DNA from: Nanobdellota archaeon
Lineage (GTDB): Archaea; Nanobdellota; Nanobdellia; UBA10117
Direction of reading: 5' to 3'
DNA length: 42,789 nucleotides
Assembly: GCA_013331935.1 (NCBI GenBank)
Contig: DUFN01000026.1
Span: forward strand, 1 to 42,789
Below are positions 17,219 through 37,542 of the stretch, one piece after another (position 1 is the stretch's first letter; every line of letters starts with the position of its first letter). The translations under genes and the position numbers were made by a program. The notes below the pieces were generated by a model. It saw only the letters and a list, made by a program, of their open reading frames with translations. It was not told the DNA's origin and searched no databases.

Positions 17219-17323
17219 GCGCGGTTAAACGCGCCTCCGTGACTACACGCGAGCGAACTTCTGTTCGCTGCGCCAAGCCGAACTTTGTTCGGCGCTGGAT
17301 TCAAAAACTCACTGCGAGTTTTT
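17219..17323. repeat. array of four hairpins upstream of AMP phosphorylase
   Basis: Four consecutive perfect stems occur. GCGCG/CGCGC is at 17219-17234, AGCGAAC/GTTCGCT at 17252-17269, GCCGAAC/GTTCGGC at 17277-17293, and AAAAACTC/GAGTTTTT at 17303-17323. On the minus strand the last follows the permease stop and ends in a T-run like a terminator, while the first ends 7 nt before the AMP phosphorylase ATG. No TATA box is visible between, so the array lies in a transcribed spacer. Confidence 0.75.
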
Positions 17324-17324
17324 G

Positions 17325-18275
17325 TTATTTTGTTTCAGCATTTGCGCCGAGCAGGGCAGACACGCAAATCAATACTATCGGCCCGATTATTAATCCTGCA
17401 GAACCCATCACCATCAAACCGCCAAGTAATCCAATGAGCATCAGCAAGGGATGCGCTTTTGCTTTCTGGCCTGCGAGGTAAGGCCTCAAAACATAATCAA
17501 GTATGCCTCCGATTACCAAACCGCATGCCATCAGCCCAAGCCCCATGTATAACTGCCCCGAAAGTATCAGCGCGATGCCCGCAGGAATATATAATGTTCC
17601 TGGGCCGACAATCGGCAGGAAGGAAAGGACAGCTACAACTGCGCCAGCTAGAATTACGTAAGGCAGACCAAACAAGTAGAACAAAACCGATGCAATCACG
17701 CCCTGCACAACTGCAATCATCAGCCAAACATACAAGTAAGCATAAGTATATCTTTCAATTTCTTTTATGAGATGATTTTTCTTTTCAGTTTCGATTGGGA
17801 CAATTTTTTTTATCCAGATGGCAAGGGCAGGCCCGTCTTTCAGCAAGTAGAAGACTGCTGAGAAGAAAATAAATACAGACAATATAACTCTAGGAATGCT
17901 TGTGATTGTGCCAGACACATTTTCAATTGCTTTTGTGAAAACAACCCTCGCAACACTTTTTACTGTGTCGCCGAGCATGGAATTGTAATAATTTATATCT
18001 AATCCGGAAATGTGCATGTATGCTTTTGCGAGTTCGTTAATGAATACGCTAGTGCCGTATGCGAGAAAAACTATTCCGATAATCAACGCAGTAAATACCA
18101 TCAAGTATCTGCTTGTTGCTTCTCCTATTTTTTTTGATAACTTCATGTGAATTGGATAGAGCGCATAAGCAGTAACAGCTGCAAATACTAATGCTGTTAA
18201 AAATGGTTTTATTACTAAGAAGGCTAAGCCCATGGCTACCAGCAATATTATCAGCTTGACTAAGTTCTTGGCCAT
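17325..18275 (-). CDS. AI-2E family (PerM/TqsA-type) membrane transporter
   Basis: This 316-residue protein is an AI-2 exporter superfamily permease. About seven to eight membrane helices are visible, with the family's long amphipathic segment in the middle (residues about 70-130). The C-terminal signature PIVGPGTLYIPAGIALILSG and the late GPIVLICVSALLG are typical. The substrate is unknown; members export signals, organic acids or cations. The ATG at 18275 is chosen over a TTG at 18290 because TTTTTATACC lies about 26 nt before it. It precedes AMP phosphorylase on the same strand. Confidence 0.87.
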   Translation of the reverse strand: MAKNLVKLIILLVAMGLAFLVIKPFLTALVFAAVTAYALYPIHMKLSKKIGEATSRYLMVFTALIIGIVFLAYGTSVFINELAKAYMHISGLDINYYNSMLGDTVKSVARVVFTKAIENVSGTITSIPRVILSVFIFFSAVFYLLKDGPALAIWIKKIVPIETEKKNHLIKEIERYTYAYLYVWLMIAVVQGVIASVLFYLFGLPYVILAGAVVAVLSFLPIVGPGTLYIPAGIALILSGQLYMGLGLMACGLVIGGILDYVLRPYLAGQKAKAHPLLMLIGLLGGLMVMGSAGLIIGPIVLICVSALLGANAETK

Positions 18276-33977: not shown

Positions 33978-34003
33978 TGACTGTCAATTTACTATTATTA
34001 TGA

Positions 34004-34185
34004 AAAAGCGCAGGGTTCAAAACCCCGCAGTTTACTGCGCTTTTCCATTCCTTGAACCCGCCTTCTAGGCGAGTGCCGTAAAAACCCCGCACTTCATCGG
34101 AAAATTTCATTTTCCGAGTGTGATGGAAAATTCTGAAAGAATTTTTCACATAGTGCGGGGAATAGGCACAAGCGGCGGGTTCAAG
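34004..34185. repeat. nested multi-hairpin palindromic element
   Basis: This 182-bp element folds almost entirely on itself. AAAAGCGCAG (34004-34013) pairs with CTGCGCTTTT (34035-34044). The outer stem CTTGAACCCGCC (34051-34062) pairs with GGCGGGTTCAAG (34174-34185). Nested inside are GTGCC/GGCAC (34073-34077/34165-34169), CCCCGCAC/GTGCGGGG (34085-34092/34153-34160), CGGAAAAT/ATTTTCCG (34098-34105/34109-34116) and GAAAATTC with a near-perfect partner (34126-34147). It has no ORF. It occupies most of the 353-bp gene-free stretch 33978-34330. Confidence 0.85.
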
Positions 34186-34244
34186 TTATTGAGGAGCGTT
34201 TGAAATAGTTTATTCTCTCTTAGTGTATACAATAATATTTATAG

Positions 34245-37278: not shown

Positions 37279-37542
37279 TCAAGCTGTCAGATATGCAAGC
37301 TCGGTTTTAGGCGCGTTGTCCAAATCCAGAACAATAACTTCTGGTTGTGGTGTTTCAAACAAATATGCTTCTGATTTCTCGCTTTCTAGCATTTGGCAGT
37401 ATGGCTTGCTAGCCTCCCGCCGCTGGCAGCCGGCTTCCTGCAATAAATACCAATTACGAACTACAAACTCAAAACTGCTTACTAATATGGCGAGCGGCGG
37501 GTTCAAGTTATTTAATAGCGCCATTGTTGGCAATGGCAACAT
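37279..37542 (-). CDS. doubtful ORF overlapping a dispersed repeat
   Basis: An 87-codon frame fills the gene-free stretch 37209-37570. Its C-terminal third (EAYLFETPQPEVIVLDLDNA) looks protein-like, while the N-terminal part (LNNLNPPLA) is read from the 20-nt repeat shared with 34171-34190. It may be a decayed gene with a repeat inserted. No family recognised. Confidence 0.3.
   Translation of the reverse strand: MLPLPTMALLNNLNPPLAILVSSFEFVVRNWYLLQEAGCQRREASKPYCQMLESEKSEAYLFETPQPEVIVLDLDNAPKTELAYLTA
37493..37512. repeat. 20-nt sequence shared with the 34 kb palindromic element
   Basis: AGCGGCGGGTTCAAGTTATT at 37493-37512 is identical to 34171-34190, which includes the right outer arm of the large palindromic element. 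No matching left arm CTTGAACCCGCC is present near here, so this appears to be a partial copy or a conserved end. Confidence 0.8.

Follow-up and report, generated by a model that had tools for sequence, protein, structure and literature searches.

The analysed window, 42,789 nucleotides long, is part of a 769-kb assembly with 34 contigs and 88% completeness. The genome encodes a type III RuBisCO, an AMP phosphorylase, a PGF-pre-PGF domain protein, and an aRF1/pelota-type eRF1-fold protein, and from this gene content we infer that it belongs to the DPANN archaea. The original prediction had described a dense inverted-repeat structure at 34004-34185, and the structure is real. Its folding energy on the plus strand is -81.7 kcal/mol (z = -8.4; 200 shuffles with a mean of -46.2 and a standard deviation of 4.2, none of them as good), and that on the minus strand is -81.1 kcal/mol (z -7.3). 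Hence, the comparison with shuffled controls proposed together with that prediction gave a fold far better than that of shuffled sequence. The 12-bp outer stem claimed at the time was found and encloses further stems. The absence of a known RNA family was also borne out, as there is no Rfam match anywhere in the window at the gathering score and the sub-threshold matches at the locus are far below the cut-offs. Two points need revision. The location was correct, but the true element is slightly longer at its ends (Table 1); the 10-bp hairpin described as separate exists, but it is hairpin A of a two-hairpin unit. The palindromic element had been seen, whereas the two-hairpin unit, the nesting, and the family had been missed. 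We refer to the element as a double-hairpin element (DHE).

Table 1. Coordinates of the double-hairpin element and related features in the window
Feature	Position	Strand	Evidence or remark
Complete long-form DHE, 188 bp	34001..34188	+	Alignment to 46 units; filled and empty sites of homologous units
Target TTA directly 5' of the element; its A pairs at the foot of hairpin A	33998..34000	+	
Hairpin A, ATGAAAAAGCGC...GCGCTTTTCCAT; contains an inner GGGTTCAAAACCC stem and, at its foot, the A/C mismatch seen across the family	34000..34048	+	
Linker TC joining hairpins A and B	34049..34050	+	TC in 34/46 and CC in 10/46 units
Hairpin B	34051..34185	+	Other long copies are built alike internally
Hairpin B, outer 12-bp stem CTTGAACCCGCC/GGCGGGTTCAAG	34051-34062 with 34174-34185	+	
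Hairpin B, second stem GTGCC/GGCAC	34073-34077 with 34165-34169	+	
Hairpin B, third stem CCCCGCAC/GTGCGGGG	34085-34092 with 34153-34160	+	
Nested double-hairpin unit of DHE-2 type in the TTTA tetraloop of the CCCCGCAC/GTGCGGGG stem	34095..34150	-	Best R1 match of the window, 30.9 bits
Internal-loop AATA, unoccupied insertion site (34163/34164; after 34164)	34161..34164	+	Junction of GCGGGGAATA and GGCAC empty here
Right end TTA	34186..34188	+	GTTA at this end almost invariant across 46 units
Probable unit remnant; hairpin B and GTTATT end clear, hairpin A lost or degenerate	17285..17330	+	R1, 17.6 bits
Truncated right end of a long-form element (GGCGAGCGGCGGGTTCAAGTTATTT)	37493..37520	+	89% match to the window element

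The unit consists of two adjacent hairpins between TTA and GTTA, and such units are dispersed. Its skeleton reads TTA, TG-hairpin A-CAT, TC, C-hairpin B-G, and TTA, with the first TTA being the target and the last one being the right end, and its compact form has 50-100 bases. The target bases over 46 aligned units are TTA in most cases, and the rest are mainly ATA, CTA, or GTA. In the long form at the window locus, the 12-bp outer stem of hairpin B contains a 2-bp stem, the GTGCC/GGCAC stem, the CCCCGCAC/GTGCGGGG stem, and two tip hairpins. Near the foot of hairpin A, 27 of the 46 units have an A.C mismatch and 14 have a G-C pair instead (columns 6 and 70 of alignment A3, 34003 and 34045 in the window); read on the opposite strand, the mismatch is a G.T wobble. 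A search for the skeleton (a hairpin, TC, a second hairpin, and TTA) recovered the window element at 34000 plus many others, with a few obviously unrelated matches removed by eye, while 1.18 Mb of shuffled sequence gave three matches.

The stems of hairpins A and B have many different sequences, and their complementarity is kept. In an alignment of 18 units that was not fitted to a model, 96.7% of the cells are paired, compared with 77.6% after shuffling and at most 47% with the partners slid. An alignment of 46 units from eleven genomes, which was fitted to the model and therefore leans towards structure, has 96.9% of the cells paired versus 75.4% after shuffling and at most 50.4% after sliding, and each of the two helices is 95-99% paired. 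Here the two-sided changes amount to 182 versus about 45 in shuffles, and the covariation score is 0.51 versus 0.13. We then inspected the mismatches in 21 base-paired positions on the unit strand and found about equal numbers of G.T (21) and A.C (17). If selection acted on an RNA, G.U would be accepted on one strand and A.C would not. In a test of modest power, the near equality hence favours a DNA-level process, or decay after insertion, over one-strand RNA selection.

The region 34004-34185 has 13 further BLAST matches elsewhere in the genome. Their comparison side by side reveals large compound palindromes on many contigs, which have the end motifs but not the stem sequences in common. The single-hairpin pattern GGAATGGAAAA..TTTTTCATA has ten matches in this genome and none in a reversed control, and among 141 genomes, namely this one and its relatives, it occurs only here and in G003, G005, and G006, three species of one sister genus. 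The search of related genomes with a covariance model, which had been suggested as a check, likewise returned many homologous copies. Specifically, model R1 has 29 matches in this genome, 24 in G003, 19 in G005, and 14 in G006; elsewhere it has three in G002, five in G092, which belongs to another family, and scattered single matches. Model R2 was trained on a wider set, and its matches in G002, G011, G012, G074, G082, and G092 are accordingly not independent of it. With E values up to 1e-4, R2 matches 44 of 371 genomes sampled from the phylum, in 37 of 259 genera, and the best of these matches share the skeleton, mostly as TTATTG..CAATTCC..GTTA. As a negative control, 0.56 Mb of loci selected by half of the motif, nearly all bacterial and mostly chance matches, reached 36 bits at best, at the selected positions. 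Two unit-specific patterns had no match in viral contigs. One covariance-model match in this genome (C5:11704, 33 bits), at the start of sufB or immediately before it, probably arose by chance.

Two further observations concern these genomes. Loci L037 (G003:C30) and L026 (G006:C5) are 99.6% identical over 820 bases that include a unit, and their two species are about 82% identical at another compared locus; the near-identity may reflect either a recent transfer or a mis-binned contig. Contig 3 of G003 also contains another dispersed structured-looking sequence (L240:7411-7657), with copies in this genome, G005, and G006 and a 69-base core that is 99% identical between genera. It is matched neither by a tRNA in ARAGORN nor by an Rfam family, and it may be a non-coding RNA under conservation or belong to another family of repeats.

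Units are inserted precisely 3' of TA and are absent from the orthologous sites of relatives. The evidence for filled and empty sites comes from homologous units at other loci and from internal loops, as the genes that flank the pelota-like gene towards the element at the window locus are kept in no relative. In G003, a unit at L240:13883-13972 lies inside a gene for a PF01170 methyltransferase and adds 84 bp, in-frame, as 28 codons, whereas the orthologues of G006, with 94% identical flanks, and of G005 are uninterrupted. A second G003 unit (L241:678-749) lengthens SufB by 22 residues close to its N-terminus relative to the SufB of this genome, which is without the insert, and a third one (L240:2093-2152) adds 18 residues in-frame to another protein compared with the insert-free G006 orthologue. 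The peptides from the 28-, 22-, and 18-codon inserts are unrelated to one another. An intergenic compound of about 290 bases in G003 (around L240:11678-11904) is absent in G006, and the unit at L241:8141-8223 is common to the two genomes. At sites with a single comparison, precise deletion in the relatives instead of insertion is possible. Among 29 units or compounds checked, 23 have no spanning open frame of at least 90 codons; six have one, and the three in-frame insertions are among them. The main units have TA on both sides, so a duplicated TA and an element ending in TA look alike. General targeting of hairpin loops was considered and is seen only weakly outside compounds: a stem of at least 5 bp is present at 5 of 39 empty sites versus 5.1% of control sites, and the excess of flanking stems is weak (rank test, p = 0.011).

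Units also nest at loop positions of other units, in the manner of Russian dolls. The interior of the long form is conserved as ..GTGCC-GTAAAAA-CCCCGCAC..GTGCGGGG-AATA-GGCAC.., and its AATA/ATA internal-loop site, which is empty in the window, is filled by a complete unit in C24 and C10 of this genome and in C14 of G005. Within this genome, C3 and C2 carry a unit where C7 and C1 have none, and C6 has two tandem units at the same internal-loop place. The tip of the stem is a second insertion site. Copies in C26 have an intact tetraloop there, GCAC-TAAA-GTGC, and the window and C1 have a DHE-2 double hairpin instead, without any duplicated bases. As a nested unit lies inside the long-form element, the window element is at least two insertions deep.

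We consider it probable that 34001-34188 is a long-form copy of a transposase-free mobile DHE, which would be mobilised in trans as folded single-stranded DNA, likely as a parasite. Of the three explanations offered by the original prediction, a non-autonomous mobile element lacking a transposase is the one backed by the dispersed copies, the exact filled and empty sites, and the nested insertions. A cruciform may form at the site, but as a property of the element rather than as an explanation of it. The anatomy suggests that the element would move as single-stranded DNA folded into two hairpins. A trans-acting enzyme would recognise the hairpins, not their sequence, and cut the right end at GTTA; the unit would then be inserted after TA in exposed single strands, either in A/T-rich intergenic DNA or in loops extruded by older copies. 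Insertion into the loops of older copies would give rise to the nested form. The stem sequences would be free to change, since movement would require no more than pairing and the short motifs at the foot, linker, and end, and arm-to-arm template switching at replication may help the arms stay complementary. Most likely, the host tolerates the DHE as a molecular parasite, either between genes or in-frame within them.

The identity of the mover was approached by looking for three enzyme families, Y1 transposase (PF01797), TnpB (PF07282), and reverse transcriptase (RVT_1), in unit-rich assemblies of which most are 68-88% complete. None of the three families was found in the present genome. A tentative candidate is an IS200/IS605-type derivative, similar to PATEs or REPs, in which a Y1 HUH transposase acting in trans inserts a single strand 3' of a short target without duplication. 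The hairpins at both ends, the lack of terminal inverted repeats, the insertion 3' of TA, and the absence of duplication at the DHE-2 tips agree with such an origin, and haloarchaeal PATEs, some of only 52 bp, are often found inserted in other mobile elements or carry such elements themselves (PMC3119063). Against it, a search of this genome and eleven relatives for Y1 transposase gave none in unit-rich genomes, with neither Y1_Tnp nor, above cut-off, TnpB in G000, G002, G003, G005, G006, and G092. The unit model does not match at the Y1 loci of G074 and G082 or at the TnpB loci of G349, the only genome searched with TnpB above cut-off. Moreover, in IS200/IS605 elements a guide tetranucleotide precedes the foot of the hairpin on its 5' side (PMC6006769), whereas hairpin A of the DHE begins at the junction itself, leaving no such guide. 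It is equally conceivable, and to be held just as tentatively, that the DHE is a gene-less single-stranded DNA parasite which is recognised by shape only, targets the loops folded by its older copies and thereby builds Russian-doll palindromes, and depends on an enzyme from none of the tested families. If so, the mover is possibly a host, viral, or so far undescribed enzyme.

In another reading, the hairpin RNA is copied by a reverse transcriptase. RNA-mediated spread has been proposed for the GC clusters of yeast mitochondria (PMC4478555), and G003, which has lineage-specific insertions, is the only one of eight genomes with a reverse transcriptase, encoding two RVT_1 proteins (L299, G003:C17:4699-5310; L300, G003:C26:5949-6566). 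Such a route is nevertheless unlikely, as RVT_1 has no match in G000, G002, G005, G006, and G092, all of which carry units, and the mismatches have no strand bias. It is very unlikely that the units are a multi-copy structured non-coding RNA family kept for a host function such as regulation or the formation of transcript ends. The very stable fold, the strong covariation, and the mostly intergenic location would suit a structured RNA, the reading also put forward in the original prediction, but the units have no fixed gene neighbour, are inserted into coding genes in some cases, differ among close relatives as lineage-specific insertions, have symmetric G.T and A.C mismatches, and are without an Rfam match at the gathering score. 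Passive palindrome growth, in which replication slippage and template switching make or duplicate hairpins locally without transposition, would keep variable stems complementary, quasi-palindrome correction being a known process, but is highly improbable given the copies at unrelated sites with constant ends and the precise insertions into different genes.

The mobile DHE interpretation has several implications. DPANN archaea have small genomes that are usually regarded as streamlined, but 29 matches occur here and up to 24 in relatives. Stem sequences that are nearly free under strict pairing preserve, as a natural record, the requirements of a mobility enzyme that recognises structure, and the mechanism can be tested directly at the filled and empty sites. 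In SufB and the methyltransferase, the in-frame insertions are cases outside Rickettsia of protein segments that arise from mobile palindromes.

We then compared the DHE with known systems. It does not match a MITE, which has terminal inverted repeats shared with a transposon of the genome: TG and GTTA at its two ends (TG...GTTA) do not form an inverted repeat, and hairpin A differs from hairpin B. Integron attC sites have RYYYAAC and GTTRRRY boxes within a cassette array. In 43 of the 46 units, the first pair of stem B is C-G (CTTGAAC, CGTGAAT, CAAAAAC, and others), which misfits the R, and the dispersed copies do not fit a cassette array. REP/BIME sequences are like the DHE in being many short, mostly intergenic hairpins; a REP, however, is one hairpin rather than two, and it comes with a tetranucleotide guide and an encoded TnpA-REP (PMC6006769, PMC8266576), neither of which is seen for the DHE. 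Rickettsia palindromic elements, of about 150 bp, encode a conserved peptide and lie in-frame in unrelated genes (reviewed in PMC10969869). They share with the DHE the palindromic nature, the in-frame location in unrelated genes, and the small host genomes, but the DHE has no conserved peptide, most of its checked copies are intergenic, and it has two separate hairpins with copies nested in each other's loops. The PATEs of Haloquadratum, the closest parallel among archaea, are transposase-free, have palindromes near both ends, measure down to 52 bp, and frequently undergo element-into-element insertion (PMC3119063). The DHE is similarly archaeal and transposase-free; alignments A1 and A3 have palindromes at both ends, no terminal inverted repeats, and lengths too short for a transposase. 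PATEs descend from IS605-type transposons that the same genome carries (PMC3119063), whereas no IS200/IS605 gene was found in the unit-rich genomes. Another difference from PATEs is the wide variation of the DHE stems under strict covariation.

Double-hairpin elements of fungal mitochondrial DNA were reportedly described by Paquin, Laforest and Lang in 2000. The papers citing them (PMC4478555, PMC5910586) present them as small elements named for their two hairpins, with evidence of mobility. In yeast mitochondria, the palindromic units of GC clusters merge and shuffle and have a two-base target (PMC4478555). With its adjacent hairpins, short linker, and filled and empty sites, the DHE belongs to the descriptive kind of mobile double-hairpin elements. 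The likeness to the fungal elements, as these are described, lies in the two-hairpin anatomy and the evidence of mobility; those elements reside in eukaryote organelles, whereas the DHE resides in a DPANN archaeon and has the skeleton TTATG..CATTCC..GTTA. In the open-access literature searched, no description of such elements in DPANN archaea was found. The DHEs form an authentic family in DPANN archaea, one that is mobile and inserts into its own copies; its nearest known kinds are the mitochondrial double-hairpin elements, the haloarchaeal PATEs, and the Rickettsia palindromic elements, of which it is a new archaeal variant.
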